This document shows positions 7,572 to 25,400 of a stretch of 38,794 bases of DNA, one piece after another. The stretch's first letter is position 1; each line of letters starts with the position of its first letter. Source of the DNA: a virus; IMG/VR virus record IMGVR_UViG_3300013094_000008, positions 1 to 38,794 of that record, one strand, 5' to 3'. The translations under genes were made by a program, and so were the position numbers. The notes beneath the pieces were generated by a model that made no database searches, was not told the origin of the DNA, and saw only the letters and a program-made list of their open reading frames with translations.

Positions 7572-7579
7572 TATTTAGT
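7572..7579 (-). promoter_or_regulatory. ACTAAATA promoter-like box before the Dps-like gene
   Basis: Minus strand ACTAAATA followed by ATATT and the ATG at 7566. With the spacing seen at the other boxes, the predicted first base is the A of the start codon. It overlaps the end of the upstream gene. It is a weaker match than the ATAAATA boxes. Confidence 0.3.
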
Positions 7580-9962
7580 CATTAAACAAAGATAGTTTCT
7601 CTTTTGCTGTCAAGTTACCTTTGCCTTGTTTAACTTGACTGTATAACCATTGTTCCATTGTGCGTCTTTGTTGTGCTACAGATTTAATGGATTTATGTGT
7701 TAGTTCAGGCATATCAGCCCAATCAATAGTATTGCCATTTTCTTTAGCCGCTTCATCAAACAGGTGAGCATTTTTAACAATAACTTGATTATCTTTACTT
7801 GTTACATTAGCCTTTACTAAATCTTTAATAGCATATTCATTTTTTTTACGAATGATTTGACCTTGGCTACGATTTTTATGTATTCTTTCTTCTTGTTCAA
7901 CAGCCTCTTTTTGTGCTTTGATTTCAGCATCACGCTCTGCTTGCCATTTAGCCTTTTCTTGAGGCGTTTTCTTTATCAAGTCACTGGCTCGTTTTTTTGC
8001 TTCTTCTTGTGCTTGTATATAGTTTTCATATTGACTTTGTTTAAGTTGTTGTAATCTTAAATCAACTTTATTAATGCTGTCAGTATCGTCAAACAATGCT
8101 TTTTGATGTAGTTGTTTCCACTCTTCTGGTGTTCGCATAACTGTAGGTTTAACAGGTTCACTTAAACCTTGACTTGCTATTTGGTCAATCTCGTCAGGCG
8201 TAGGTTCTTTAGCAAGTTTTTCACGCAATATTTCTAACTGTGGACTTTCATTGCCTACACCACCGTGTTTACCTTCTAATGCTTCACGCAATGCCATCAT
8301 ACCTTTGCTTGGTTGTGGAACAACATCATACCCACCATAGTCATTTTGTTTTAACTTTGGTTCTGGTTTAGGTTCGTTCATTTCAGCCGCAACTCTTGGT
8401 GTTGGCTTTTCCAAGTTAATATTTGGTTCAGGTGCTACAGGTTGAACTGGGGCTTGTGGGACTGTTCCTCCTGGTGAGACATTCAATGTTCCAGTTTGTG
8501 GACCAGGTGCTTCTATTTGCTGTCCCGCAGGTTTACTTTGCGGACCACGAGCACGAATCATATCCAGTATTTGCTGTGATTTAGCCGCTTTTTCAGCGTG
8601 TGACATAGCAGGAACAGCCGCTGGAGCAGGTGTTTGTGGGACTTGTGTTGGCTGTGTAAATGGTGCTGGTTGGGACGGCGAAATAGGTCCATTGCCTGGG
8701 ACATTTTGTGTCCCAGGATTAGTTGCTTCAGGATATTGATTAATACCTGTGCGTTCATTAAATGCGGCTTTGTTAGCCATTTCTAAATCGTGACTGGCAA
8801 CACCACCAGGGGATACATACATAGGTGGTTTTGCTTGTTGCTGTCCATTCCAGCCTAACTGTAATGGTTGTGGGGATACAGGTTTAGGTGCCAGTTCAGG
8901 ATTCATATTGTGTAACTGTTGACTAAACTGTGTAGTTGGACTTGATGCTGGGGACGCCGTTTGTTGTCCAGCAGATGGCGATGGCATACCTTCTTGTTCA
9001 AACAATCTATCAAATGCGTTAGGTGGGGCATTACGCATACGAACGCTATCAGCCACATCTCTATAAGCATTAACACCTTGCTTCCACAATGGTTGTGTTC
9101 CACGCATACCAGGGATTTTATCAGTTACATTTTTGCCAAGTGTTTCTTCAGCAATAGTAGCATAATGTCCAACACCAGGAATACTACCTACAAATGGACG
9201 AGGACTTGTAGCATACGCACCTAATCGTTGTCCAATGTTTTCTGCCACTTTTCCAGGTGCTGGCACTGATTTAGTATTACTCAAGTTGTCCATACCTTGT
9301 GGTATAGGTTGTCTTAAATCTGTTGCTTTAGGAATCAATCCGCCAGTTAATCTATGTCCTGCTTCTTGAGCAAATCCTTTAACCGCTTTTGCTACTGGTG
9401 GTATAATAGCCTCGCCAGCACCACCTAAAGCACCTTGTTCTAACCCAGCAGTTGCTCTTTCTTGTAAGTTACCAGGAGTTGTTGTGGCACCAGCAATAGC
9501 ACCACCAAGTGCTCCTTGTGCTATTCTACCAGTAGCACCAAGTGCTCCAGCGATTTTAGCACCGCCTGTGTATGGAATAGCATAACCAGCCATTTGACCA
9601 GCACCAGTAGCATATGGATTAGATTGCTCATACGGTGCTACTTGTCTTTCAGTATCTTGTCTTGCGTTTGCGGCATTGTTAATAAATGCTTGACCTGTAT
9701 CTTTAGCACCAACGGCTTGTAATCCTCGTCCTGCTAAATCAACTAAACCACCAACAGTATTGCTTAATGTTTTACCTACACCCATTGAAAAACCGTGGAG
9801 CGATTTCATTCCTGGCACATTATCTTCAAGCCATTTGTTTTGTGATTCAACTTGATGTTGTGGAATAATGTGATGCTGAATAGCATTGGATATATCATCA
9901 GCAGACATATTGTCTGGAAACTCAACATCCCCAACATCTGGTATAGATATTACTTGAGACAT
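7575..9962 (-). CDS. Internal virion / DNA-ejection protein, 795 aa
   Basis: The N-terminus (ISIPDVGDVEFPDNMSADDISNAIQ) is the G-x-V-E-F-P-D-x-M-S motif common in large internal proteins of podoviruses. Residues about 55-180 are Gly/Ala-rich with a hydrophobic stretch (GFSMGVGKTLSNTVGGLVDLAG, GALGATGRIAQGALGGAIAGATT) that could enter membranes. A long Pro/Gln-rich middle (about 370-530) and a charged helical C-terminal part (KKRASDLIKKTPQEKAKWQAERDAEIKAQKEAVEQEERI) follow. It probably leaves the virion with the DNA to build the channel across the envelope. It overlaps the transglycosylase-bearing gene by one base. Confidence 0.65.
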   Translation of the reverse strand: MSQVISIPDVGDVEFPDNMSADDISNAIQHHIIPQHQVESQNKWLEDNVPGMKSLHGFSMGVGKTLSNTVGGLVDLAGRGLQAVGAKDTGQAFINNAANARQDTERQVAPYEQSNPYATGAGQMAGYAIPYTGGAKIAGALGATGRIAQGALGGAIAGATTTPGNLQERATAGLEQGALGGAGEAIIPPVAKAVKGFAQEAGHRLTGGLIPKATDLRQPIPQGMDNLSNTKSVPAPGKVAENIGQRLGAYATSPRPFVGSIPGVGHYATIAEETLGKNVTDKIPGMRGTQPLWKQGVNAYRDVADSVRMRNAPPNAFDRLFEQEGMPSPSAGQQTASPASSPTTQFSQQLHNMNPELAPKPVSPQPLQLGWNGQQQAKPPMYVSPGGVASHDLEMANKAAFNERTGINQYPEATNPGTQNVPGNGPISPSQPAPFTQPTQVPQTPAPAAVPAMSHAEKAAKSQQILDMIRARGPQSKPAGQQIEAPGPQTGTLNVSPGGTVPQAPVQPVAPEPNINLEKPTPRVAAEMNEPKPEPKLKQNDYGGYDVVPQPSKGMMALREALEGKHGGVGNESPQLEILREKLAKEPTPDEIDQIASQGLSEPVKPTVMRTPEEWKQLHQKALFDDTDSINKVDLRLQQLKQSQYENYIQAQEEAKKRASDLIKKTPQEKAKWQAERDAEIKAQKEAVEQEERIHKNRSQGQIIRKKNEYAIKDLVKANVTSKDNQVIVKNAHLFDEAAKENGNTIDWADMPELTHKSIKSVAQQRRTMEQWLYSQVKQGKGNLTAKEKLSLFND

Positions 9963-12589
9963 TATTGGTATTCTACTCTATTAGTTTTTGGATTATATAC
10001 ACCTCGTTTAGTAGGTGCTACAGGTGCTTGTTGTGTATTGTTAGCGGCAGGTGCTTCAGCAGGTGCTGAACTTAACGCAACTTTAGCGTGTGGTGTCAAA
10101 TACTTGTCAAAGTTTTTTAACCCAGTTGCTGTATATTGTTGTTTAACACCATTTAACTGTCCACCTAATAGTTTTTGGTAGCCATCTAAAATAGCATTAA
10201 GTTGTTCAGGTGATTTAGCAGAAGATAAGATTTTTTGTTTTTCTTCACGCTCACTCATACTACCACCATTAGCAACAACCGCTTTGGTAATCTCAGCCGC
10301 AAGTAATCCAGCCATAGCATCAAATGTGCCAATGTCTTTATTACCTGTATTTTTTGCGAAAGCATTAACGATTTGGTTGATTGGAGTAAACTCACCATTA
10401 GGTAGTTTTTTAATCTGTTCTCTTACAGTTCCAATATGGTCAACAGCAACATTCAATGCTCTGATAGTTTTACCAGTAGCACCTGTGTTAAACTCTTTGC
10501 GAGCCGCTTGTGCTGAATCGCTTTCTGTTTCACTGTAATCAGGGTCAAGTTCTTTTGCTCGTCTAATACTTAAACTACGCTCACCATTTATTGCTGGAAT
10601 GTTAGTGCTGGTTCTATCACCACTAATAAGCATTCTGGCATTATTATCAAGTGTTTCAGCATCAACTTTTTGTTCTCGTTTTAACTGGTCTTTGTTTTTA
10701 ACACTTGGAGAAGCATACTTACCCCAACCTTTTAGAAAACTTTCTTTACCATTATTAGTTTCATATGGGTTTTCTTCGTCTGGTTCAGGTTGTGTAGCAG
10801 TAGATTTTGTAGGTGTAGTAACACCAGTGTCAGTAGTTACAACTTGTCCTCTACTTGCTTTTAGGCTTTGTAGTTTTTGTGCTCTATGTGCGTCAACTTG
10901 TTGTTGAATACTTGTATCATCCAACCCTTGTTGTGCTAAATCATTATCTCCAGCACCACGCTCTCTTTCTTCAGTTTGGCGTTTTCTTAATATTTTTTCA
11001 AGGTTAGCGGCAGAAGTGTCTGCTTGTGATTCTAAACCACTTTTTGAACCAAGTGGAACCATACCACTTGGAGCAGTTTGTGTATACTTGCCATTAACTT
11101 TATAAACATTCTGTCCTTCTTCATTCTTAAATACTTCAGTCTGTCCCTCATCACTGTTCATAATATGTCCAGTTGATTGTAAACCAAGCATACCAGCATA
11201 TTGCTGTGCTTTGACTGAATCCATTTTCATACCATTTTTATCGTATGCGTTTTCAACAATACCTGTTAGTGGATTTTTTTGAATGTAAACTGGTTCGCCT
11301 TTTTCATCCATTGCTTGTTTAATAGGATGTGGACTTGGCATTAGTTTTTCCATCTCTTGTGCGGCTCTCTGGCGTTGTCCAGTATAACCATAAAACAATG
11401 CTTTCAACCAACTACCATCATTAGTTTGTTTTGCTAACTCACGAGTCATATCGCTGATGGCTTTAGTATTACCAGAACCAGCGGCTTGTATAGTTGCTTG
11501 TGCTTGTGCTTGTCCAACTTTACTTTGTTGGTCTTGTAATAGTTTATCTGTAGCAATACTTTTTGCCGCAGGACTTGCGTTAGGGTCACTAATAACACTT
11601 GCGTGGTCTTCTGGTGTTCGTGCTTGATTTATTCTATCAATGTGTTCATCACCTGTAGTTTGAGATACTTTTGGTGTTTCGCCATTTAATAACTTTTTAG
11701 CAATATCACGCACTTTCTCTTCGCCACCATTATTAACAGCGGCTTGACTACTTACAACACCAGTTTTTAAGAACTGTGCCGCACCTTTAGCACCCATAAA
11801 ATGTGCTAAACGCAATGTCTTGTCATCAGGTTGAATACCCTGTGCTTGTAGTTGTTTGCTTAATACGCTTTGATATGTTTGGTTAGCACGAAGTTGTTCA
11901 TCAGGTGTTAAACTTTCAATGTTCTTACCCTTAAAATAACTGTCTTGTGATTGTATGTCACGATAAGCAGGAGCAGTAATACCAAACTTACCATATGCTG
12001 TGCTTGAGCGTTGACCATTAGCATTTGCTGGATAATGATAACCCATTGTGTTATTATTACCACTTTCACTTTGAGCAATGGCTTGGTCATTTGGTGTAGG
12101 AGGTGCCGCAACACTACCTTGCTGAGGAGGCATTTGAGGTTGTTGTGCTGGAGCAGGTGCCTGTTGTTGTGGTGCCTGTTGTTGTGGTGCCTGTTGTTGT
12201 GGCATTTGAGTTTGAGTAGCACCGCCAACCAGTCCGCCTACTTGTCCAGTAGGTTGTTGTGGTTGTTGAGGAGCAACAGGAGCAATAGATTGAGGTTGAT
12301 TTGCTTGTGGCGGATTTTGTGGGTTTTGTTGCCCATTCATCATATAGTTACTGTTACCAAGATTAACTTGTTGTGGAGTAACTGGTTGAACAGGAGGTTG
12401 AGTTTGTCCTTGTGGATTAAACTGAAATCCACCAGAACTTAAAGAAGAACCATTTTGTCCAGCATCAAACTGATAACTGTTAGGTTGAACAGTTGTTGTT
12501 GTTGGAGTTGTATTTTGTGACTGACTAACGCCACCCATTTTTATTTTTAGGTTGGAATAGTCATTAAGATTAGATAAGTCTATTGCCAT
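9962..12589 (-). CDS. Ejection protein with lytic transglycosylase-like domain, 875 aa
   Basis: A Gln/Pro-rich leader (residues 20-160, including tandem QQQAP) precedes a domain of about 110 residues. It reads AIAQSESGNNNTMGYHYP, then STAYGKFGITAPAYRDIQ, then LRLAHFMGAKGAAQFLKTG. That order is typical of phage-borne SLT-type muramidases, with E175 as the likely catalytic Glu. The C-terminal third (RRAKELDPDYSE..., FNTGATGKTIRALNVAVDHIGTVREQI) matches a region common in podovirus internal proteins. It would cut peptidoglycan as the DNA enters the cell. It is the only peptidoglycan-degrading domain recognised in the genome. A good AGGAT ribosome site supports the start at 12589. Confidence 0.75.
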   Translation of the reverse strand: MAIDLSNLNDYSNLKIKMGGVSQSQNTTPTTTTVQPNSYQFDAGQNGSSLSSGGFQFNPQGQTQPPVQPVTPQQVNLGNSNYMMNGQQNPQNPPQANQPQSIAPVAPQQPQQPTGQVGGLVGGATQTQMPQQQAPQQQAPQQQAPAPAQQPQMPPQQGSVAAPPTPNDQAIAQSESGNNNTMGYHYPANANGQRSSTAYGKFGITAPAYRDIQSQDSYFKGKNIESLTPDEQLRANQTYQSVLSKQLQAQGIQPDDKTLRLAHFMGAKGAAQFLKTGVVSSQAAVNNGGEEKVRDIAKKLLNGETPKVSQTTGDEHIDRINQARTPEDHASVISDPNASPAAKSIATDKLLQDQQSKVGQAQAQATIQAAGSGNTKAISDMTRELAKQTNDGSWLKALFYGYTGQRQRAAQEMEKLMPSPHPIKQAMDEKGEPVYIQKNPLTGIVENAYDKNGMKMDSVKAQQYAGMLGLQSTGHIMNSDEGQTEVFKNEEGQNVYKVNGKYTQTAPSGMVPLGSKSGLESQADTSAANLEKILRKRQTEERERGAGDNDLAQQGLDDTSIQQQVDAHRAQKLQSLKASRGQVVTTDTGVTTPTKSTATQPEPDEENPYETNNGKESFLKGWGKYASPSVKNKDQLKREQKVDAETLDNNARMLISGDRTSTNIPAINGERSLSIRRAKELDPDYSETESDSAQAARKEFNTGATGKTIRALNVAVDHIGTVREQIKKLPNGEFTPINQIVNAFAKNTGNKDIGTFDAMAGLLAAEITKAVVANGGSMSEREEKQKILSSAKSPEQLNAILDGYQKLLGGQLNGVKQQYTATGLKNFDKYLTPHAKVALSSAPAEAPAANNTQQAPVAPTKRGVYNPKTNRVEYQ
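12156..12200 (-). repeat. 15-bp tandem repeat encoding QQQAP
   Basis: Three tandem copies of a 15-base unit in the Gln/Pro-rich leader of the ejection protein encode repeated Gln-Gln-Gln-Ala-Pro. This is likely a flexible linker that varies in length by slippage. Confidence 0.7.
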
Positions 12590-12593
12590 TTGA

Positions 12594-13346
12594 TTATCCT
12601 AAACTAAACATTGAACTACCATTAGCACCGCCAATACCAGCACTATAACCTGTTGTATTAGTTGTGCCACCTTGTGTGCCGCTAAAGTTAGGATTCCAAC
12701 TTTGTGATGGAGTTCCAAACAATATACTTGCGTATTGATTATATAACTGTTGTGGAGTAGAAGCCGCAGTGATTTGGTTGTTAGCCGCTGTTTGAGCACC
12801 ACCCAACGCATTAATACCTAAACTACCTAATGTGCTTCCTGCTTGTAGTTGTTGATTTGCTATGCCTTGTTCTGCTTGTGCTATTGCCGCTTCTTGTTGT
12901 GCTTGTGTAGAACCAGCAGTTTGTGCCGCCGCCAATGCTTCACGCTCACTACCAATCTGTCCAGCACCACCAAACTGTGCTGATTGATTAGCCATATTTT
13001 GTGAGTATTGTGCTTGAGCAGGAGCCAAAGACGCTTGTAACTGTTGTTGGATATAAGCAGGACTATCCATATTTTCCAAGCCTTGTATGCCGTTTGAGAA
13101 CGCATTTTGTCCGCCAGTAATCTGAGCATTTTGTGCTGTGGCTGATGTGTCAGCCAAGTTTTGTGCCGCAGTAGCAACGCTTGGTGCTGACTTGTTATAT
13201 ACATCAGTAGCACCTGTAACAGCATTTTGATAAGACGGTCCAACTGTGTTTGTAAACAAACCAGTCTGTGCCGCAATCATCGCATTTTGTTCTGGCGATA
13301 ATGTTGGAATGTAAGTTGAACTTCCGCCGCTTTTTCCTAAACTCAT
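12594..13346 (-). CDS. Small internal virion / ejection protein, 250 aa
   Basis: Begins MSLGKSGGSSTYIPTLSPEQNAMIAAQTGLFTNTVGPSYQNAVTGATDVYN, a pattern seen in the smaller internal proteins next to P22- and T7-type ejection genes. It is Ala/Gln-rich and helical through the middle (QSAQFGGAGQIGSEREALAAAQTAGSTQAQQEAAIAQAEQG), with a Gly/Asn/Ser-rich C-terminus. It is the first of three consecutive genes of this type, with only four bases between it and the next. AAGGA supports the start. It may be a core protein or help position the other ejection proteins. Confidence 0.6.
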   Translation of the reverse strand: MSLGKSGGSSTYIPTLSPEQNAMIAAQTGLFTNTVGPSYQNAVTGATDVYNKSAPSVATAAQNLADTSATAQNAQITGGQNAFSNGIQGLENMDSPAYIQQQLQASLAPAQAQYSQNMANQSAQFGGAGQIGSEREALAAAQTAGSTQAQQEAAIAQAEQGIANQQLQAGSTLGSLGINALGGAQTAANNQITAASTPQQLYNQYASILFGTPSQSWNPNFSGTQGGTTNTTGYSAGIGGANGSSMFSLG

Positions 13347-13361
13347 AATATTTCCTTATTC

Positions 13362-13373
13362 TTTTATTTATAC
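13362..13373 (-). promoter_or_regulatory. NATAAATA promoter-like box before the ejection genes
   Basis: Minus strand GTATAAATAAAA, with an exact TATAAATA core at 13365-13372, in the short gap between the giant repeat protein and the ejection operon. The predicted start near 13359 leaves a leader of about 13 bases containing AAGGA. Confidence 0.5.
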
Positions 13374-13374
13374 T

Positions 13375-16300
13375 TTATGGTGCTACAGGAGTGTATACAG
13401 GGGCTTGATACAATGGTAATGATGGTTGTCCCTGTCCCTGTGCCATATTCATTTCTGCTGGAATCGTTCCAGTTAAATATGGAGCCATTGCTGTATTTGT
13501 TCCTTTTACATAGTTTTGACTTGGTGTAAAGTTCCAAGAACCTTGTGCTTGATTTTGACCAATATTTATTCCATTTGGCACAACTGGTTTTGGTTGTGTT
13601 CCCCAACTCCAAGGACTTTCACCAAGATAACCATTGCTACTACTTGTTCCACTTGGATTGCCATTGATTGGCACATATGGAATATAAGGCGTTGTAGGAA
13701 CAACTGGAGTTGTAGTTGTATCAGTTGTGTCTGTTGGTGTTGTGGTCCCAGTATCAGTTGGTGTTGTATCAGTTGATGGGGTTGTGTTTACAACACTACC
13801 AGTTGTATTATCAGTAGTCAATGTGCTTCCATCATCAAATGTGGTTGTGCTGGTTCCATTACCATTATCTATAGTAGGTCCAACAGGAATATTTGTATCA
13901 GTTGTAACGCCACCAGTTGTATCTTTTGGTGATGTAATAGTTACAGTTCCCATATCGTATGGGTCTTCAGTTGTTCCACTACCGCCAGTGCCAGGTGTTG
14001 TAGTAACAGTAGAAGGTATAGTTATAGGTTCAACAGGCGTTGTAGTTTCTGTAACTGGATTAGGTTCTGTAACTGGTGGTGTTATTGATGTAGTTGGTTC
14101 TGTAACTGGTGGTGTTACAGGTGTAGTTACAGGTGTAGTTGGTTCTGTAACTGGAGTTGTTGGTGTAGTTACAGGTGTAGTTACAGGTGTAGTTGGTTCT
14201 GTAACTGGAGTTGTTGGTGGTGTTACAGGTGTAGTTACAGGTGTAGTTGGTTCTGTAACTGGAGTTGTTGGTGTAGTTACAGGTGTAGAAAGTGTAGGAG
14301 TTTGTAAAACAGTTCCTGTCCACCCCGCCTCTCCAATCATACCAGTAGCATTATCTACAATCATTTGTGATTGTTTACCACTACTATCAGTCATTGTATA
14401 AACTGTTTTAGGGTCAGACGCAGTTCCAGAAAGATATGGCTCAGAAATAGTTCCAGGAGGCAACATACTTGGGTTTAATACACCATTAGAATATGCTGGA
14501 AGTTCGTTTGGATTATAATATGTTTGAGTATTGCTTGTAGTTGTAGGTGTTGGTGTAGTTACAGGAGTTGTAGCAGGTTCTACAGGCGTAGTTGTAGGTG
14601 TTGGTGTAGTTACAGGAGTTGTAGCAGGTTCTACAGGCGTAGTTGTAGGTGTTGGAGTTGTTTGTGTTGTTGTAGGAGTATTTGTGCCTTCAAACTGATT
14701 GATTTGACTTTGTGTAAATCCATCTGCCGTTAAAGCATCTGCTGGAATATTAATACCTTTTAAGTAACTTAATGGAAGTCCGCCATTAGGATTAGCCAAC
14801 TGTTGTGGCGTTACACCGCCCGCTAATAGTTGTTGTGGACTTTCGCCATATGCCCAATACATTGTAGATGGACTTACTCCATCTTGAACTAACTGTCCAG
14901 GAGTAATACCATCATTTAACAATGTTTGTGGACTTATTCCTGCTTTATATAAAGTGGCTTGGTCAACTCCAGCATTTAATAACTGTTGCGGAGTTTGGTT
15001 GTCAAATAACATTAAGTTATTGACAGTATCACCAGCCGCTAATAACTGTTGGTCAGTTACGCCAGCCGCTGTTAGTTGTGTATCGTTAACGCCACTATTT
15101 AATAAAGTTTTAGGACTAACACCTTCAGACAATAATGTAGATGGTGTTACACCAGCCTGAACTAACTGTTGTGGAGTTACATTATCATTCAATAATGTTT
15201 GACTATTGACACCAGCCTGAATCAACTGTTGTGGGCTTATTCCACTTGATAATAACTGTTGAGAAGTTTCACCAGCATTTAACATTTGTTGTGGTGTAAC
15301 ACCATACCATTCTAAAGTATTTGGATTTGCCCCGCCCGCTATTAGTTGTGGGATTGACGCACCATCTTGAACTAAAGTAGATACATTATATCCTTTTTGA
15401 TATAATATTCCTGCGTCTGCTCCAGCCGCCAATAGTTGGTTAACAGGTGCTCTATCAGCAATCAATGTTGATAAAGGCACACCTTCACTTTCTAATGTAG
15501 ATACAGGCACACCATTCCAAATAGCCATTTGTGGATTTGAAACATCAGTGTTAACTGGAGTAGGTGTTGGTGTAGTTACAGGAGTTGGCTCTACAGGAGT
15601 TGGCTCTACAGGAGTTGATGTCGTTGTAGGTGTAGTTGTTGTAGGTGTAGTTGTTGTAGGTGTAGTTACAGGAGTTGGCTCTACAGGACTTGGTGTCGCT
15701 GTAGGTGTAGTCGCTGTAGGTGTTGTAGTTTTTGGTGCGAAATCACTTGCTGGATAACCAGCCGCTTCAAGTTGAGCAGGAGTTGCGTAAGTAGTTAACT
15801 GACTTGATGGAACGCCCATTTGTTGTAATGTAGATAATGGAACGCCATAACCAAGATATAGTTGTGTTGCTGTAGTTTGTCCAGCATTTATAAATGATTG
15901 TAGTTGTTGTGGTGTTGCTCCTGCTTGAACAGCACTATAAACATTCATATGTGTTCCACTTAAATCTGACACACCTGATTTTACTAACTCTGCTGGTGTA
16001 GCACCATTACTGTATAACTCTGCTGGAGTATATCCATTTTGTATTAAACTGTTAACAGCAGGTTGTCCACCATTACTAACAATATTTTGTAAACTTGCTC
16101 CTGCCTGTAACAGTTGTTGTGCTGTTACACCTTGATTCATCATTTCGCTGATACTTCCCCCAGCGTTTAATATTTGTTGTGTTGTAGCACCACCAGCCAT
16201 TAAATCTGCTGTAGTGGCACCCTCACGCATTAATGCTGAGGGTGTAGCACCTTCAGACAATAACTGACTTACACTTACCCCAGCAGTTTCTAACTGATTT

Positions 16301-18345
16301 ACACTTACACCAGAACTTAATAATGTTGCTCCATTTACTCCAGCATTTAACAATGCTTGTGGTGACATACCAGCATTTAATAAAGTAGAAGGTGCTGTGC
16401 CAGATGCTATTAGTTGTTGTGCTGTAATACCATCTTGTATTTCTTGTGCTGTTGATAAACCTAATGTATTTGGATTAGCACCTGCCTGAACTAATGTTTC
16501 AGGTGCTACACCTTCATTCTTTAATACACTTGATGGAATACCTAAATCTAATAAAGTTTTAGGGTCAACACCAGCGGTTAATAAGTTTTGACTACTTTGT
16601 CCGCTTGAATATAACTGTTGTGCTGTAGCACCATCAGCCAATAATGTTTTATCACTAACACCAGCCCCCGCTAATGACCCAGCATTTACCCCGTCATTTA
16701 ACAAAGTTTGTGGGCTTACACCATCAGCCAATAACTGACTTGGGCTAACATATGGACTGTTTACAAATACTTTAGGGTCAACACCAGCGGATAATAAGTT
16801 TTTGGCATTCGCACCATCTGCTACCATAGTAGTTGGATTAGCACCAGCGGCTAATAAATCGCTTGTGTTAGCACCAGCACTGATTAGAGAAGTTAAGTTA
16901 GCACCATCTTTGTATAGTGTTCCAGCACTTACACCATCGTTTAACAATGTAGAAGGACTTACATTATCTCCTAATAAAGTTTTAGGGTCAACTCCAGCAC
17001 CTAATAATGTTTGAGCACTAACACCATCGCTTAACAATGTGTAAGGATTTACTCCATTTTGTGCTAATGTATCACCACTAATACCACCAGCCAATAACTG
17101 ATTTGCTGATAATCCACTGTTTATTAAACTACTTACGCTTACGCCATCATTTACTAATGTAGAAGGTTTTACACCATCAAGTGCTAATGTATAAGGACTT
17201 GCTCCAGCAGTTACTAAATCTGCTGGATTAGCACCTTCATTTAACAATGTTTGAGCACTTACGCCTGATTTATATAACGCACCACTACTTACCCCATCAT
17301 TTAACAGAGTTTGACTATTAACGCCACTATTTAACAATGTTTGTGGAGTTACACCATCATTTAACAATGTTTGTGGGCTTACACCATCTTGAACTAAAGT
17401 AGACGCATTTACGCCACTACTTAATAAAGTTTGTGGATTAACTTGGTCATTTACTAATGTTTGAGCACTAACACCATTTGACATTAGTGTTTGTGGAGTT
17501 ACACCTTCTTGTATCATTGTAGCAGGATTTACGCCCGCTTTAACCATTTGTTGTGTTGTTACGCCTTGTGATGCCAACTGGCTTACATTTACACCAGCCT
17601 GAACTAACCCACTCAAGTTAGCACCAGCGGCTAACAATGTTTGTAGATTTTTTGGAGCACCAAGATATGGAGCCGCTGTAGCACCTAAACCTAATAATGC
17701 TGTTGTGCTTACACCATTTTGTAATAAACTACTGACACTGGCACCGCCAGCCAATAAACTAACTAATGGTGCTTTAGCACCTAATAGTTCACCAACACTT
17801 GCTCCAGCACCTAATAAGTTAGCAACGCTTACACCGCTTGCCATCATATCAGCAACAGACGCACCTGCTCCTAACAATGGTCCCAATGGTGTTCCAGCGG
17901 CTAATAAGTTTGCCGCACTTGCTCCACCACTCAATAAGTTTTCTACAATAGGAGTTGTTAAGTTTTGTGCTCCACCGTAACTACTAATAACACTTTGTAA
18001 TCCAGTGGCACTTGATATGGGAGCGTCAATACTTGCTGTGCTAATAACACCATTTGTTGTGGCTGTTTGTAAACTTGACGCAACTGTATCTGGATTTAAT
18101 CCAGCATTAGTCAAATCTGTAGCAGTTAAATCGCCACTATCAGCAAGTCCTAAAAGTTCTGGGTCAGTAACACCAACCGCTAATAATGCGGCACCGCCAA
18201 CAGTTGCCCAGCCGCCAGGAATGTTATGGTCAACAAAGTTACCAATAGAACTGGCAACATCATTAACAGCATTGCCAACAGAACTGACAACATCGCCTAT
18301 AGCATTACCAACATCACTTATGACACTTCCAACAAATCCACCCAT
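13375..18345 (-). CDS. Giant decapeptide-repeat virion-associated protein, 1656 aa
   Basis: Residues 1-75 are Gly/Val-rich and amphipathic to hydrophobic (GGFVGSVISDVGNAIGDVV..., WATVGGAALLAVGV). Residues about 135-865 and 950-1220 are near-continuous ten-residue units of the type T-L-L-N-D-G-V-S-P-Q, roughly 100 in all, with Leu at two neighbouring positions and an invariant-looking Gly. Three Thr/Pro-rich linkers (about 870-945, 1220-1270, 1330-1430) separate the blocks. A Gly/Asn-rich C-terminal part ends in Tyr/Pro-rich sequence. I do not recognise a named family; a Leu-rich solenoid is plausible. Its place between tail and ejection genes suggests a virion component, either an adhesin or an internal protein. 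AAAGGA supports the start. Confidence 0.7.
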   Translation of the reverse strand: MGGFVGSVISDVGNAIGDVVSSVGNAVNDVASSIGNFVDHNIPGGWATVGGAALLAVGVTDPELLGLADSGDLTATDLTNAGLNPDTVASSLQTATTNGVISTASIDAPISSATGLQSVISSYGGAQNLTTPIVENLLSGGASAANLLAAGTPLGPLLGAGASVADMMASGVSVANLLGAGASVGELLGAKAPLVSLLAGGASVSSLLQNGVSTTALLGLGATAAPYLGAPKNLQTLLAAGANLSGLVQAGVNVSQLASQGVTTQQMVKAGVNPATMIQEGVTPQTLMSNGVSAQTLVNDQVNPQTLLSSGVNASTLVQDGVSPQTLLNDGVTPQTLLNSGVNSQTLLNDGVSSGALYKSGVSAQTLLNEGANPADLVTAGASPYTLALDGVKPSTLVNDGVSVSSLINSGLSANQLLAGGISGDTLAQNGVNPYTLLSDGVSAQTLLGAGVDPKTLLGDNVSPSTLLNDGVSAGTLYKDGANLTSLISAGANTSDLLAAGANPTTMVADGANAKNLLSAGVDPKVFVNSPYVSPSQLLADGVSPQTLLNDGVNAGSLAGAGVSDKTLLADGATAQQLYSSGQSSQNLLTAGVDPKTLLDLGIPSSVLKNEGVAPETLVQAGANPNTLGLSTAQEIQDGITAQQLIASGTAPSTLLNAGMSPQALLNAGVNGATLLSSGVSVNQLETAGVSVSQLLSEGATPSALMREGATTADLMAGGATTQQILNAGGSISEMMNQGVTAQQLLQAGASLQNIVSNGGQPAVNSLIQNGYTPAELYSNGATPAELVKSGVSDLSGTHMNVYSAVQAGATPQQLQSFINAGQTTATQLYLGYGVPLSTLQQMGVPSSQLTTYATPAQLEAAGYPASDFAPKTTTPTATTPTATPSPVEPTPVTTPTTTTPTTTTPTTTSTPVEPTPVEPTPVTTPTPTPVNTDVSNPQMAIWNGVPVSTLESEGVPLSTLIADRAPVNQLLAAGADAGILYQKGYNVSTLVQDGASIPQLIAGGANPNTLEWYGVTPQQMLNAGETSQQLLSSGISPQQLIQAGVNSQTLLNDNVTPQQLVQAGVTPSTLLSEGVSPKTLLNSGVNDTQLTAAGVTDQQLLAAGDTVNNLMLFDNQTPQQLLNAGVDQATLYKAGISPQTLLNDGITPGQLVQDGVSPSTMYWAYGESPQQLLAGGVTPQQLANPNGGLPLSYLKGINIPADALTADGFTQSQINQFEGTNTPTTTQTTPTPTTTPVEPATTPVTTPTPTTTPVEPATTPVTTPTPTTTSNTQTYYNPNELPAYSNGVLNPSMLPPGTISEPYLSGTASDPKTVYTMTDSSGKQSQMIVDNATGMIGEAGWTGTVLQTPTLSTPVTTPTTPVTEPTTPVTTPVTPPTTPVTEPTTPVTTPVTTPTTPVTEPTTPVTTPVTPPVTEPTTSITPPVTEPNPVTETTTPVEPITIPSTVTTTPGTGGSGTTEDPYDMGTVTITSPKDTTGGVTTDTNIPVGPTIDNGNGTSTTTFDDGSTLTTDNTTGSVVNTTPSTDTTPTDTGTTTPTDTTDTTTTPVVPTTPYIPYVPINGNPSGTSSSNGYLGESPWSWGTQPKPVVPNGINIGQNQAQGSWNFTPSQNYVKGTNTAMAPYLTGTIPAEMNMAQGQGQPSLPLYQAPVYTPVAP
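14095..14290 (-). repeat. 54-bp tandem repeat encoding Thr/Pro/Val linker
   Basis: The same core recurs at 14141, 14195 and 14249 (period 54 bases, 18 residues), with a shorter spacing of 45 before the first. It encodes TTPVTEPTTPVTTPVT-type linker in the giant repeat protein. The near-identity of copies points to recent slippage or unequal recombination. Confidence 0.8.
14541..14660 (-). repeat. 51-bp tandem repeat encoding TPTPTTTPVEPATTPVT
   Basis: Copies begin at 14541, 14592 and 14643 (period 51 bases, 17 residues); the first two are complete and essentially identical, the third partial. It is a second Thr/Pro linker of the giant repeat protein. Confidence 0.8.
14700..15500 (-). repeat. 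30-bp coding repeats, second decapeptide block
   Basis: Diverged 30-base units encoding the decapeptide of the giant protein, about 25-28 units by spacing. They are less alike at DNA level than at protein level, so the repeat is old and kept by selection on the protein. Confidence 0.75.
15750..17960 (-). repeat. 30-bp coding repeats, first decapeptide block
   Basis: About 70 diverged 30-base units (estimated from spacing, not counted one by one). Some neighbouring units around 17270-17400 are nearly identical in DNA, which suggests recent local duplication inside an old array. Confidence 0.75.
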
Positions 18346-18366
18346 ATTATTATTCCTTTATCCTAT

Positions 18367-20883
18367 TTAGCGTTTAACTTCTGTAACAGTCAATATTGGA
18401 GAGCCAATGATTAAGTTACTTGTGTTCGCACATCCTGCTACCAAATAAAATGTAACAGGAGTATAACTGTTATGATTAAATATAACACCATCAATAACTG
18501 GATTTGGAATCTCAGTATATGTTCCACCAATAACTTGCCCAGGTAATAAAGTCACATTTGCTACAACAGTATTACCAGCGGCTCTGGCTGGTGGAGTAGA
18601 ACCTTGTGGAAACTCTGTAAAACCATCTAATACAATAGAAGTTGGATTATTTTGAGTTTGTAATATTGGCAAAGGCTCATAGTTCATAATGGGGTTGGTA
18701 TAAGTTGGCAAGTTGCCATACAATCCTGCCATAGCATCAAACGCATAAGTTTTGCTTTGTGGATAACTTAGTTGTCCATTTATTAAAGTATTACCATTAT
18801 CAGTAATAACAACACCATCGCCAACCGCTGTCCAATAACCAGTAACAGGGTCCCAAGTAATATCATAAAGGTTACGCAAAGTTCCGCTATTATAAGTGTT
18901 GAAAACAAGATAAGGATTGCCCGCACTAACATAGTCGTCAGCCCATAAAATAGTTCCATAATCACCTACAATCCACCATCTATATCTATAGTTGTCATAA
19001 CAAATACCTCGCAAGTTTACAGTATGTGCTTGTGGAGGCATAGCATATACTTTTGCCCAAACACCACCACCAGCGGGTCTTTGTATAATAATGCCATCTT
19101 CACCAACAGCCACAAATGTTCCACTGTTAGTTGCGTTAGCCGCTTTACCAGCACCTGCCACTAATGTAGATATGCGTTGACTACCATTTGGTCCACTATA
19201 TGCTACAGCATTTAAGTTACCTGTGTATGTAAAATAACCGCTTAATCCATTGTATTCTGGACTCCAGCCGCTACTACTTACAAATGCTCCACTATTGCTG
19301 TATGTTCTACTTGAACTGAATATGGTTGCGAAATCCCCAACAGCCACAGCGGTGCTAACTCTTACATTACTATAAGGTGCTACATCGTGTGCTATACCAT
19401 TTATTTTACCATAGTTAGACGCATTACCATTCCAAGGATTTGATTGATTTAAGTCTAATGCCAGTTCAACTGTAACATTACCATTATTATCATTATCAGA
19501 CCTTGCGATATAGCAATAAAACTGTGTGCCAATCATTTGACCACTTTGCGGGTCAATATATGTATTACCAGTTGTATTATATGGAACAACTGATGCTAAC
19601 AAATAGTTATGGTGAACAGGTCCTGTTCCGCCTGTTAATGCCCAACTTTCCCAATCAGTAGCAGTTACAGTATAATAAGTAGGATAACTTCCAGCATTTG
19701 CTGGAACATTGGCATATGTTTGGCGATATGTTGGAGGAAACTCAATACCCACTGATGTGTTGTATTGAACAGCATTAATAGCACCGTAATAAGTTGGTTT
19801 ACCAAGTATATGACTTGAATAATATAAGTTAGCATAACTGTAAGTTACACCACTATTAGTTGTGTTACCAACTAAAATATTACTTGTATAAGTTCCTGCC
19901 GCATTAAACTCGCCTGTAGCATAGATAGCACCCCATCCATAACCAGAGGTTGTGCCTATGTTATGTCCACCAATAACAACAGTAGCATTAGCAATGTTAC
20001 TTGTGCTGTTAGGGTCAGGGTATGCCATTTTAACTTTGCGGAACTGATATGGAAAATATGGACTATAAGGTCCTTGCCCTGCTAATGGGTCAAGTAAACC
20101 TTCATTACAACTACGCCATAAACCAACATAGTTGTTAGCAGTTGTGCCAGCATCGTTGTCAAAGAACAAACTATAGTTTACCAACAATGTGCTATTGCTT
20201 TCTGTTGGTGTAATAGTCACAGCAGTAATCAAACTATTGTTGTTTGCTGTCCAAGTATAATAACTGTAGTTGACAAGTTTAGGACGCTTGTAATATGGTT
20301 GACTAACAAAGTTACTAATATATTCTGAACTAACAGAGTTTGTAATAGCACTTGTAGCAATAGTTGGAGTTGTAACAGCCGCAGTTTGTAACTGAGGCGT
20401 AGACACAACAGCATTACCACCTATGTAAAGTGGGATTGGTGTTGAATCTAAAACTGGTAAAAAGTTTACAGGTGGTGTATTGCCCGCAAAGAAGTTGATT
20501 TGATTACCGCCTAATGGCAAATAATACAATGCGTTACCAGAGGGAAAACCACCAGTAACTTCATACCAACTATAATCAGTTGGATTACTACTTGGAGTTA
20601 GATTGCTACTATTTTGAACACCGTAAAATGTTGTCCCAGTAGCATTACTTGTAAAACCACTACCTGTAGCAGTATTACCATAATAAATGTGGATATAGTT
20701 ATATAGATAACTTGTTACACTACCAGTAGAACCTGTGCCATTGCTTGTGGTAACAATACCGCTGGCGGCATCTGCTACTAATACATTAGCATCACCAGCA
20801 GTTGTATTCATATTTGCTAAAGCATAGTTTAACCCTGCGATAACCGCACCTAAACCAGAGCCAGGAGGTAATAGATTTGCCAT
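18367..20883 (-). CDS. Tail protein with beta-propeller-like repeats, 838 aa
   Basis: Starts MANLLPPGSGLGAVIAGLNYALANMN. The ATG at 20883 forms a TAATG overlap with the upstream stop; a TTG 11 codons earlier is not needed. The C-terminal half holds repeated blades: AVGDFATIFSSSR, FVAVGEDGIIIQRPAGG, WWIVGDYGTILWADD and WTAVGDGVVITDNG. These resemble the V-G-x-x-G-x-I/V-x-x-S/T turns of BNR/Ycf48-type propellers. The first 400 residues are Thr/Asn/Ser-rich beta structure. Position after the nozzle-like gene suggests a tail tip or receptor-facing component. Enzyme activity is not evident. Confidence 0.6.
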   Translation of the reverse strand: MANLLPPGSGLGAVIAGLNYALANMNTTAGDANVLVADAASGIVTTSNGTGSTGSVTSYLYNYIHIYYGNTATGSGFTSNATGTTFYGVQNSSNLTPSSNPTDYSWYEVTGGFPSGNALYYLPLGGNQINFFAGNTPPVNFLPVLDSTPIPLYIGGNAVVSTPQLQTAAVTTPTIATSAITNSVSSEYISNFVSQPYYKRPKLVNYSYYTWTANNNSLITAVTITPTESNSTLLVNYSLFFDNDAGTTANNYVGLWRSCNEGLLDPLAGQGPYSPYFPYQFRKVKMAYPDPNSTSNIANATVVIGGHNIGTTSGYGWGAIYATGEFNAAGTYTSNILVGNTTNSGVTYSYANLYYSSHILGKPTYYGAINAVQYNTSVGIEFPPTYRQTYANVPANAGSYPTYYTVTATDWESWALTGGTGPVHHNYLLASVVPYNTTGNTYIDPQSGQMIGTQFYCYIARSDNDNNGNVTVELALDLNQSNPWNGNASNYGKINGIAHDVAPYSNVRVSTAVAVGDFATIFSSSRTYSNSGAFVSSSGWSPEYNGLSGYFTYTGNLNAVAYSGPNGSQRISTLVAGAGKAANATNSGTFVAVGEDGIIIQRPAGGGVWAKVYAMPPQAHTVNLRGICYDNYRYRWWIVGDYGTILWADDYVSAGNPYLVFNTYNSGTLRNLYDITWDPVTGYWTAVGDGVVITDNGNTLINGQLSYPQSKTYAFDAMAGLYGNLPTYTNPIMNYEPLPILQTQNNPTSIVLDGFTEFPQGSTPPARAAGNTVVANVTLLPGQVIGGTYTEIPNPVIDGVIFNHNSYTPVTFYLVAGCANTSNLIIGSPILTVTEVKR

Positions 20884-22481
20884 TAGCGATTGTCCTCTGT
20901 TTTTGTGATTTGCCAAGTAGCATCAGTTACTTGCCAATATGTTGTTGAATCATTACTACTGATATTTATAGAAACAACACGATTATCATTTTGGTTTATT
21001 TGACACCAAGGATTGCTTGTTTGTATTGGCATACTTACACTACTACTAAAAGAGGCTGTGTTACCAACACTATCAGCACCACCAATAGTAACTGTCAAGT
21101 TACCACTTCCTGTAACTTTTGGCAACACACGATGAACTTGAACTTTGGCACTATAAGCATCAGCCAACTCAATGTTATCACGCTGAAACACAGCATTGAT
21201 ATTGCCAGTCAAATAAGTTAAACCTTTATCTTTTTGAACAAGTTGAACATTGCCACTACCATTGCTGTATACAATAGTTCTGGTTGCGTAGTTAAATGAA
21301 CTACCAGTCCAAACAGGACCTTCGTCAGCCGCAGTAGCCTGTGTAACTTGTCTTGGTGGGTTCCAAATATCTAAATCATATCTGTAACTAATCATTTGGT
21401 TACATTGTCCTGTGCTGTTTAAGTCTGGATAATAAATCTCAATCTGATATTTTTCACTGTTATGAACCATAAACACTTGATTAGTGTATGAGGCATTTAA
21501 GTTGTTAAAGAAATAGTTTTTGATACGCTGATTGCCAATAGGTTGAAATGTTGTGCCATTAAATGCCCAAATATCTCTTGCGTCAACACCATATGCCATA
21601 GCATCTACAACAGCCACACAGTTTTCGTTTAATAGTCCTCTACCCTTGCTAATAATACTTACAGCAAAGATAGGTGCTTGTGTTGATGTATATTGTATAG
21701 GTTGAAATACAACAGTATCCCAATATGAGCAAACATAAAAGTTACCAGCCAAACTAAATCCATCTACAAGTGCTCCACGCACAGGAACTTCAAGTTGGTT
21801 GGCTGTGTTAGTAATAGTTGGAGTCCAAGTTGTAGGACCTTGATTTACACCAAAGTTTTGACTCCAACGAACTGTAGTTGGTAAATGTTGTGTTGTGCCT
21901 GTGCTAATAATAGCACCAGTCAAGTTGCCAGCAACTAAAATACTACCAACATTAGGGCTGTTATATAAACGCAAGAATCCTGCTGTTAAACTGGAATATA
22001 GTGGAGTGCCTGTGCTTGTAACATCATAGTTCCATATATAGTTGTCAGGTGCGTTATCATACAAGCGTAAAACAGTGGCAGTTGATAGCAAATACATTGG
22101 AGGATTTATCATATCATTTATAAACAATGTATTACCATTCCAGCAACCTGTAATAACTGTGCTGGCACTATAGCCAGTAAAAGTTCCTACACTTGGTGTA
22201 ATATTTGTAATACCGCTACTATTCATAGCATACCATTTACCTTGACTTGTTGCTACAATATACCAGAACACACCGTTATCTCTAAATCCGCCTGTCATAT
22301 AAATCACATTGCCAGGAACTGTGCTCATTATATATTGGTCGCCCGCAACAGATTTAATACCTCGTGTATCTGTTTCAATATTTTGTCCAGCATTATATTC
22401 ATTCTCGCCCAACGCCGCCGCAGGGATGTCAGGTGTAAAAGTCATCTTGTTAAAACTGGTGACTAAAGGTTTGATTGCCAT
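20883..22481 (-). CDS. Tail nozzle / hub-like protein, 532 aa
   Basis: Begins MAIKPLVTSFNKMTFTPDIPAAALGENEYNAGQNIETDTRGIKSVAGDQYI, as do large podovirus nozzle proteins and P22 gp10-type tail accessory proteins, where a beta-propeller follows. GGFRDNGVFWYIVATSQGKWYAMN, FYVCSYWDTVVFQPI and AYGVDARDIWAFNGTTFQPIGNQRIKNYFF are typical blades and the D-x-F-N-G-x-x-x-x-P-I-G element of that family. It would seal the tail tube below the connector and carry tail appendages. It overlaps genes on both sides by one base, consistent with a coupled tail operon. Confidence 0.65.
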   Translation of the reverse strand: MAIKPLVTSFNKMTFTPDIPAAALGENEYNAGQNIETDTRGIKSVAGDQYIMSTVPGNVIYMTGGFRDNGVFWYIVATSQGKWYAMNSSGITNITPSVGTFTGYSASTVITGCWNGNTLFINDMINPPMYLLSTATVLRLYDNAPDNYIWNYDVTSTGTPLYSSLTAGFLRLYNSPNVGSILVAGNLTGAIISTGTTQHLPTTVRWSQNFGVNQGPTTWTPTITNTANQLEVPVRGALVDGFSLAGNFYVCSYWDTVVFQPIQYTSTQAPIFAVSIISKGRGLLNENCVAVVDAMAYGVDARDIWAFNGTTFQPIGNQRIKNYFFNNLNASYTNQVFMVHNSEKYQIEIYYPDLNSTGQCNQMISYRYDLDIWNPPRQVTQATAADEGPVWTGSSFNYATRTIVYSNGSGNVQLVQKDKGLTYLTGNINAVFQRDNIELADAYSAKVQVHRVLPKVTGSGNLTVTIGGADSVGNTASFSSSVSMPIQTSNPWCQINQNDNRVVSINISSNDSTTYWQVTDATWQITKTEDNR

Positions 22482-25400
22482 TATGCGTATCCTTTTGTTA
22501 AGTTAGCGTAGTAGTTAGTTCCATCATACCAAATATCAATAATATCAATAGAACTTGCCGCTGTAGATAATGTTTTACTACCACCAGCAAACTTCATTGT
22601 GCTTGACATAGTGCGTGAACCTGTTGAGTCTTGGTTAACTACTAATCTGATTTTTTGTCCTGTTATTGGACTTGTAAATCCATTTAATGTCAAGGCACCG
22701 TTTAATGTAATAGTTTGATTATAACCGTTTTGAGCGTTAGGTGCTATTGTTCCGCTTGTTGTTCCAAAACTGTAACTTGGTCCATTTTGAATAACAGCGT
22801 TGGCAACAAATGCTCTTCCTACATATGATGATGATGTGTAACCAGGTGTAATATAAATGTGTCCAGGACTTGTAGCACCACCTGTGCTTTTTGTGTATTG
22901 TAAAAAAATATTAGCGGCGACGCTTCCGCCCACTGGACCTGTGTAACTTAATATTTGTAATGGGGCAGATGTTGGTCCAATAATACCTTGGGTTACAGCA
23001 CTACCGCCAAATATAAGATAGTTACTTGGTGTTATTGTTATATTACCTGTATTTGTAATAACTGGTGTAGATATATTAGCCGCCGCTTGAATATTGGCAC
23101 TAAAATATGCTGATGTTCCAGTTATTGCCGCACCAAAGTAACCTGAACTTGCGTTCAATGCTCCCATTGATAATGCGGCATATATGTTTGGAGACAAGTT
23201 ACTATTCCAAGGTGCTCCTGATGGAACTTGTCCTATTGCTATATCTTCTACTAAAACAAATGAACCTGGTCCTCTACCATCATATAAAATACCAGCAATA
23301 CTGTCAGCAGTTGTATAGTTACTAAAGTGTTTGATTAACATACCACCTTGTGCGTAGTTACTTAATGATGTATAAGTTACATTGCCGCCAACAACAAAAT
23401 ATGGGTCATAAGGATTAGCAAGAACAACAGCACCACTTAACCCAATGTTGTTTCCAATATTTGCTGTTCCAATAGCATTGATGGTTAAGTCAATGTTACT
23501 TGTTTGGTAAATGTTGCTAATCATATTACCATTAGAAGCAATAATAATATTACCAGCAGTAATGTTACCTGAATAACTTGGTAAGTATGCCGCCACATTA
23601 CTATTAGCATAACTTGTTTTAGTTGCGATAGCGGTGTTAGCACTATTCAAACCTGTTTGTAAGTTACTAATACTTGTGTTAGCAGAGTTTAACCCTGTCT
23701 GTAAACCAGCAGTCGTAGTGTTACCTGTAGATATTGCTGTGTTAGCAGAGTTCAAACCTGTTTGTAAGTTACTAATACTTGTGTTAGCAGTATTAAGTCC
23801 AGTCTGTAATCCACTGATACTTGTATTGGCACTATTCAACCCTGTTTGTAATCCTGCGGTGGTTGTGTTACCAGTAGAAATAGCAGTATTCGCAGAGTTT
23901 AAGCCAGTTTGAACACCAGCGATTGTAGTATTAGCAGAGTTTAACCCTGTCTGTAAGTTTGTCAATGTAGTATTGGCTGTATTCAAACCAGTTTGAATGC
24001 CACTTACAGTCGTGTTACTTGTATTCAATCCTGTCTGTAAGTTAGTTACAGTTGTATTAAGAGTTGAAATACTTGAGTTGGCTGTGTTTAATCCTGTCTG
24101 AACGCCAGCAATAGTTGTGTTTGCTGTATTCAAACCTGTCTGTAAGTTAGTTACAGTTGTATTAAGAGTTGAAATACTTGAGTTGGCTGTGTTTAAGCCA
24201 GTTTGAATACCACTTATTGTAGAGTTGGCAGAGTTTAAGCCAGTTTGAATACCACTTAAATCAGTCCAAATGTAACCAATAGTTGGGTCAATATTAGCGG
24301 CAAGATAACTTGCTACTTGTGTATTACCATAACTTGAACCACCACCAGTGTAAGCAGTAGATTGAACTGTTCCATCACTAAACTTAACACCACTACTACC
24401 TAATGTTGTTAGATTTGTAACAACTATATTATTGGCTGTTAAGTTACCTGAATAACTTGGTAAGTATGCGGCGACATTACTATTAGCATAACTTGTTTTA
24501 GTTGCGATAGCAGTATTGGCAGAGTTTAAGCCAGTTTGAATACCACTTGCCGTTGTATTTGCTGTATTCAATCCAGTTTGTAAGTTGCTAATAGTTGTAT
24601 TGTATGCCAAACCTGTTACATTGTAAGCATTACCATTTAAGTAACTTGTAGCATTGACATTGCCAACTTTGATAGAATCAAATATAATATTAGGGTCAGT
24701 TAAGTTTACAACATTACCACTTGGTTCTGCTACTACATTACTGAAAAATACCCATTGTGCTGTATTGTAATCTCGTGTCATACCAGTGTGAGCATACACA
24801 TTGGCTGGTCCACCTATAAAGTGACTATACAATCCAATATCATAGTTGTATGGATATGCTGGGCTTGCTGTCAAATAAACTAATGGGGTTTGAACACTTA
24901 AAGGATTGTAACTGATAGTATTAATGTTACTTACATTTAAGTTACCCTGAATCCATACATCTTCAGCAAAACTTGCTCCACCGCTAACTTGTAAAGCACC
25001 TGTGCCTACGCCCGTAGCATTAGTTGTGTTTGTGATAATAAGAGGACTTGTTAAAGAACCAACGCTTGTAATATTTGGTTGAGCATTAACAGTTAAAGTT
25101 CCGCCTGTAAGTCCATTATAAGTTGGCAAATATGCGGCAACATTACTATTAGCATAAACTTCACCAACTAAAGTTGTTACACTTGCTTGTAAAGCAGTAA
25201 TAGAAGTGTTTGCTGTATTCAACCCTGTTTGAACACCAGCAATAGTGCTGTTGGCACTATTCAAGCCAGTTTGTAAACCAGCAGTCGTAGTATTGCCTGT
25301 AGAAATAGCAGTATTAGCACTATTCAAACCAGTTTGTAGATTTGATATAGAAGTATTGGCTGTGTTTAATCCTGTTTGAATACCAGCAATAGTGCTGTTA

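Follow-up and report, generated by a model that had tools for sequence, protein, structure and literature searches.

Few components of podophages are as poorly understood as their DNA ejection proteins, including how these are long enough to cross the cell envelope. The Kuravirus SU10 loses gp20-24 when its genome is released, and its gp20 has transglycosylase activity; the virion structure did not resolve the ejection proteins (PMC9509320). P22 gp7 is assigned to the gp14-like outer-membrane class in the review of Swanson et al., and membrane-spanning elements are universally conserved in gp14 and gp16 homologues (PMC8954989). Outside phage, a decapeptide repeat unit is known mainly from a bacterial secretion channel, Legionella DotG/IcmE. 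The cryo-EM model of DotG covers only residues 791-824 and the C-terminal dome, and the repeats were not resolved there (PMC8486379). For decapeptide repeats in phages, our literature search yielded nothing relevant beside a survey of coral phages, in which icmE accounted for 11.14% of the phage symbiosis genes when hits needed a minimum of 40% identity and a length of 20 residues or more (PMC11309003).

The window analyzed here is one virus record of 38,794 bases (IMGVR_UViG_3300013094_000008). An ORF with an ATG start, reading from 18345 to 13375 on the minus strand, encodes a protein of 1656 aa, which we designate P0001. The first-pass annotation, made from the letters of the window, had described a 1656-residue protein taking up an eighth of the genome; the ORF is real, its strand is minus, and its share is 12.8% of the record. 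A purine-rich stretch, AAAGGAATAATAAT-ATG, lies directly before the start and could be the ribosome-binding site of P0001. The parts of P0001 and its neighbouring genes at 7575-22481 described below are all on the minus strand.

Residues 101-860 of P0001 contained 252 identities at a lag of ten, against 70 +/- 8 (maximum 93) in 1000 shuffles, and the identities at lags 20, 30 and 40 were almost as strong (221, 211 and 195, respectively). A unit profile search revealed 84 confident ten-residue units. Degenerate units (about eight single-unit gaps and about four in residues 814-857) bring the total to ~96, and the earlier figure of about one hundred was a fair one. The consensus is [TQ]-L-[LVI]-[ANSQ]-[ADS]-G-[VA]-[STN]-[PAV]-[QSA], in which Gly fills position 6 in 80 of the 84 units and Leu fills position 2 in 75, whereas the other positions drift. 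The unit table and the Pfam matches delimit two blocks, block 1 at aa ~136-857 (15775-17940) and block 2 at aa ~950-1191 (14773-15498). The first-pass annotation was wrong in holding that the unit could not be named, as it is the 'Decapeptide repeat region' of Pfam (PF25296), which P0001 matched in 15 stretches with 334 bits against a gathering cut-off of 45 (E 6.3e-102). By this match the repeat is a member of PF25296, and nothing tested contradicts the membership. Compared with the family, the phage unit prefers V or A at position 7 and often has P at position 9; the DotG unit, aligned with P0001, has mainly F at position 7 and A at position 9. The unit had also been said to be neither a pentapeptide repeat nor an LRR, which agrees with the lack of a Pfam match to either in P0001 and with an all-helical structural model.

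This model, an AlphaFold2 prediction of 14 units of block 1 (aa 296-435), had a mean pLDDT of 92.1 and a pTM of 0.78, with an input of 12 non-overlapping segments, aligned and taken from the window and from related loci; an alignment built in this way, of repeats of the same protein and of its relatives, can favour a regular solenoid. Each unit formed one 6-residue helix and a 4-residue loop. The ~96 units are predicted to fold as an alpha-solenoid, and the modelling of consecutive units supports the solenoid proposed at first reading. Foldseek returned no good match for the model (best E 1.8 in PDB and 5.0 in BFVD, none at E 0.001), and the best VIA-align result had a Z of 3.0, to a designed helical repeat. 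The absence of a known-fold match does not prove a new fold.

Four Thr/Pro-rich stretches were found, at aa ~868-940, 1221-1277, 1347-1455 and 1510-1560. The linkers noted earlier are indeed rich in Thr and Pro, but they number four rather than three, and only the first divides the repeats; the other three lie in the C-terminal third of the protein. Linker 1 (15526-15744), bounded by the unit table, contains tandem repeats at 15565-15737. Linker 2 (14515-14685) contains a 51-nt tandem repeat with 97% identity, and linker 3 (13981-14307) a 54-nt tandem repeat with 95% identity. Since the 51- and 54-nt repeats are near-perfect, these linkers may be mis-assembled.

The N-terminal domain (N-domain; aa 1-92, 18070-18345) consists of an amphipathic helix followed by 'IPGGWATVGGAALLAVGVTDPELLGLADSG'. 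The helix (aa 7-41, 18223-18327) corresponds to the Gly/Val-rich amphipathic segment of the first-pass annotation and is made of three near-perfect 11-mers, SVISDVGNAIG, DVVSSVGNAVN and DVASSIGNFVD. Its hydrophobic moment of 0.47 was reached by 0 of 5000 shuffles, which gave 0.12, and is as would be expected of a membrane-surface helix. The AlphaFold2 model of aa 1-235 was of moderate confidence (pLDDT 73.5), low at the N-terminus (pLDDT ~40 for residues 1-30 and for the helix 7-41), and placed a series of short helices running into the solenoid after the long helix. A Foldseek search of PDB with this N-terminal model gave a best E of 0.3.

The portal protein of the window matched the SU10-type family PF23899 (E 6e-49) and the major capsid protein the SU10-type family PF17236 (E 1e-33); the terminase matched the T4-type N-terminal family. 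The phage is an SU10-like, short-tailed podovirus. Upstream of P0001 are a conserved, nozzle-like virion structural gene of 532 aa (20883-22481), which matched phrog_3287 at E 2.7e-37 and shows ~38-65% identity in relatives, and a fibre/spike-like gene of 849 aa (18367-20916), whose N-terminal 150 aa are conserved and whose C-terminus is variable. This variable C-terminus contains VAVGDxGxI-type motifs reminiscent of beta-propellers, and a 773-aa gene in L114, one of the related IMG/VR loci, is similar in style. A further fibre-like protein of 1388 aa, with 42-nt and 105/147-nt tandem DNA repeats, is encoded at 22481-26647.

Downstream of P0001 lie genes for proteins of 250 aa (12594-13346), 875 aa (9962-12589) and 795 aa (7575-9962). 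The 250-aa gene is conserved and present in nearly all syntenic genomes compared; as a separate gp7 homologue it was unsupported (profile-profile hhalign probability 0.1). The 875-aa protein itself had no family match. Its homologues matched the SLT family PF01464 (L379:12959-15568, E 2.9e-10) and endolysin PHROGs (L376:6846-9413), and the protein of the window keeps an SESGNN...AYGKFGIT motif; judged from these homologues, it is probably a transglycosylase-bearing ejection protein. The 795-aa gene belongs to the same cassette and had no family match, and its slot is present but divergent in relatives. Within the structural block, P0001 is flanked on one side by genes of nozzle and fibre type and on the other by genes whose relatives encode transglycosylase-bearing ejection proteins. 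In genome order, SU10 gp20-24 likewise come after the nozzle and fibre genes, a likeness of position.

Neither a tblastn search of P0001 against 50,697 phage records nor a peptide-pattern search of IMG/VR detected relatives, probably because of low-complexity filtering and the degeneracy of the repeats. Relatives were found by a DNA pattern with a 30-nt period; most of the first matches were five-residue or out-of-frame repeats of no relation to the unit, and filters on frame and HMM score eliminated them. A pattern scan of bacterial genomes hit at least 118 stretches, with only dissimilar repeats among the matches listed. In other phages the decapeptide unit was found, for example in L114, L213, L207, L229 and L230. 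The orthologue in L114 (IMGVR_UViG_3300022591_000069, 11322-13673) has the same gene order and is 39% identical to P0001 along 630 aa that take in the N-terminus. Its array matched PF25296 with 195 bits, and the repeats are conserved between it and P0001. L213 has an N-domain of the P0001 kind and a shorter decapeptide array.

A search with the N-terminal alignment revealed the N-domain family in 37 viral contigs, of which only those of L114 and L213 contain decapeptides. Behind the N-domain of others are 14-residue GFTNAxEYNAAT repeats (L376, L378), Gln/Ala-rich coils (L379, L408) or short spacers. The predicted proteins show that the repeat body behind the N-domain is exchangeable between relatives. 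The 14-residue arrays (GFTNAxEYNAATxA; L376:4205-6049, L378:7263-11486) had no Pfam match and look like another one-helix-per-unit solenoid.

In six loci examined (L376, L378, L379, L393, L403 and L408), the N-domain protein occupies the slot of P0001, in the order nozzle-like 532-aa gene, fibre-like gene, N-domain protein, 250-aa gene, 875-aa gene, a variable gene and a 151-aa gene. The portal has close relatives in 60 IMG/VR loci. No decapeptides were detected in the 43 closest-portal records searched (42 IMG/VR relatives and MW202484). Eight longer relatives and MW202484 have the nozzle-like 532-aa gene, a variable stretch and the conserved 250-, 875- and 151-aa genes, in that order, and the variable stretch encodes a fast-evolving protein whose length ranges from 189 to 1536 aa. 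In sister phages, the slot proteins (G031, 1536 aa; G038, 643 aa; G007, 394 aa; L376; L378) share the slot with P0001 but differ in repeat body, and those of L376 and L378 also share its N-domain. The C-terminal segment of P0001 (aa ~1495-1656, 13375-13863) contains the motifs 'NGTSTTTFDDGSTLTTDNTTG' and 'GESPWSWGT', which were also found in the same-slot proteins of L379 and L378 by motif-level BLAST with the composition filter off. The variable-stretch proteins of sister phages have a C-terminal region of ~120 aa in common; P0001 was not among the hits of the profile search for a C-terminal domain shared by these proteins, and its similarity to them there is at the level of motifs.

Two series of fusions connect P0001 with DNA ejection proteins. 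All three contigs tested (L387, L396 and L400) from a group with proteins of ~470-500 aa join the N-domain to phrog_598, 'DNA ejection' (E 3e-19 to 5e-21). In an independent series, L207, L229 and L230 combine decapeptide arrays with phrog_598. The label of this family is grounded, because P22 gp7 itself matches it at E 2e-95. L217 and L233 hold the same genes as the L207, L229 and L230 fusion loci, and the fusion protein of L217 is the 489-aa one of L207. An SLT/internal virion protein is encoded two genes downstream of the decapeptide-phrog_598 fusion in L217, and in L400 the gene two positions after the N-domain-gp7 fusion encodes a DNA ejection/transglycosylase protein (phrog_26400, E 2.5e-44). 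P0001 itself matched neither phrog_598 nor any other PHROG family, and because it is without a phrog_598 domain of its own, its link to ejection is by association. From the two independent fusion series and the synteny, we therefore place P0001 in the ejection class, with which it shares the position in the cassette and domains common to bona fide DNA ejection proteins. P22 gp7 resembles P0001 in cassette position, and its domain is fused elsewhere to the N-domain and to decapeptides; P22 gp7 has 229 aa, whereas P0001 is seven times longer and lacks the phrog_598 domain. The fusions to a P22 gp7-type domain and the ejection cassette support the earlier remark that the N-terminus would suit an internal virion protein or one entering the envelope. 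A GNAT-type acetyltransferase of ~150 aa is encoded just upstream of the ejection gene in three loci (L207:3042-3494, L230:3050-3526 and L229:982-1431), and a sister phage also has one within its variable stretch (L077:14450-14908).

These results suggest, with a probability of roughly 0.68, that P0001 serves its SU10-like phage as an ejection (pilot) protein of modular build, in function of the P22 gp7 / T7 gp14 class or accessory to it. P0001 would be packaged in the head, exit by way of the nozzle at an early stage of infection and enter the bacterium, where it would assist the phage DNA in passing the cell envelope. The amphipathic 11-mer helix and the adjoining hydrophobic segment may contact or insert into the host membrane, and the solenoid rod, with its flexible Thr/Pro joints, could span the periplasm as an extended element of adjustable length; meanwhile, the transglycosylase-type neighbour would open the peptidoglycan.

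A location inside the head is also part of a second explanation, that P0001 is a core or ruler which is not ejected and which, for instance as a scaffold or part of a core stack, organizes DNA, takes up space in the capsid or governs how the ejection proteins assemble. The structural-block position agrees with such a role, a large protein with interchangeable bodies would suit a filler, and podovirus ejection and core proteins are packaged together. The amphipathic 11-mer helix, the hydrophobic N-domain and the fusion to an ejection domain nevertheless point to membrane contact, and we regard a purely internal role as unlikely. A further explanation takes the repeat body to be neutral filler that is free to expand and has no specific role, the function residing in the N-domain alone. 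The bodies of relatives are wholly different, and recent slippage is evident from the near-perfect tandem DNA repeats of the linkers. Against neutrality, the Gly and Leu positions of the unit are kept while the others drift, the repeats are kept between L114 and the window, and the unit folds confidently in AlphaFold2; the conservation and the confident fold therefore suggest selection on the fold, and a neutral body is improbable. An external protein was the proposal of the first-pass annotation, in which a long solenoid on stalks could be an unusual adhesin. Such an adhesin, or a fibre-associated protein, would bind structures on the host surface. The P0001 gene directly follows the 849-aa fibre/spike-like gene and is rich in low-complexity repeats, and Thr/Pro linkers are common in surface proteins. 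Searches of Pfam, PHROGs and NCBIfam revealed no receptor-binding, carbohydrate-binding or fibre match, an absence that does not exclude an adhesin. Variation in adhesin genes is usually at the C-terminus, whereas in the relatives of P0001 it is the middle that varies. Both the N-domain and the repeats are tied elsewhere to a DNA ejection domain, and the genes after P0001 are of ejection type. Positive evidence for the adhesin was not found, leaving the proposal unsupported, and we consider it quite unlikely.

The resemblance to DotG needs separate consideration. P0001 matched the NCBIfam DotG/IcmE model NF033900 at E 1.5e-103, with 347.7 bits against an equivalog cut-off of 750 and in the repeat region only, the best stretch covering model positions 217-696 of 1008. 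DotG/IcmE (7muc) was its only strong sequence match in PDB (E 6e-38). Partial matches to the DotG model were also obtained for the phage arrays of L114 (196 bits), L213 (53), L230 (54) and L229 (37). Both P0001 and DotG have a long decapeptide array, in the latter within an envelope-spanning translocation machine. P0001 differs in its phage structural context, and its C-terminal third had no Pfam match at E up to 1, to a VirB10-like C-terminal domain or to anything else. The score below the cut-off, the restriction to the repeat region and the lack of this domain rule out P0001 as DotG. The broader explanation, a DotG/IcmE-like secretion component or host-interaction auxiliary gene acquired by the phage, can draw on the two E-values above and on the 'icmE/dotG' phages reported from corals (PMC11309003). 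It is already largely refuted by the missed cut-off and the lacking VirB10 domain; moreover, L230 and L229 share the partial DotG match, yet their C-termini are gp7-type ejection domains. We consider this origin highly improbable. The identity threshold of the coral-phage survey could be passed by decapeptide repeats; therefore, caution is advisable in naming phage arrays 'icmE/dotG', and some of those calls may be decapeptide ejection proteins of the P0001 kind.

That two envelope-crossing machines have this unit in common is suggestive and possibly a coincidence. We offer as a speculative idea, with the odds rather against it, that the decapeptide alpha-solenoid can be reused, at adjustable length, as a part that spans the periplasm, common to the Dot/Icm channel (DotG) and podophage ejectosomes, otherwise unrelated machines, in which it would bridge or line the passage from outer to inner membrane.

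With P0001 read as an ejection protein, one slot with a constant N-domain and swapped bodies (10-residue repeats, 14-residue repeats, coiled coil) provides a natural series of length variation. As the repeat is unresolved in the DotG cryo-EM papers and had no good PDB match, a phage decapeptide fragment could give its first structure. Decapeptide arrays of a WAAGxSTRDL type, above the PF25296 cut-off, also occur in small ORFs of unrelated contigs (L242:9144-9812 and L248:3495-4556). Alternating repeats of ~20 residues, 'LYATGAxxxxLxKTGAGVAK', with no Pfam match, were observed in a further viral contig (L254:6106-7329).
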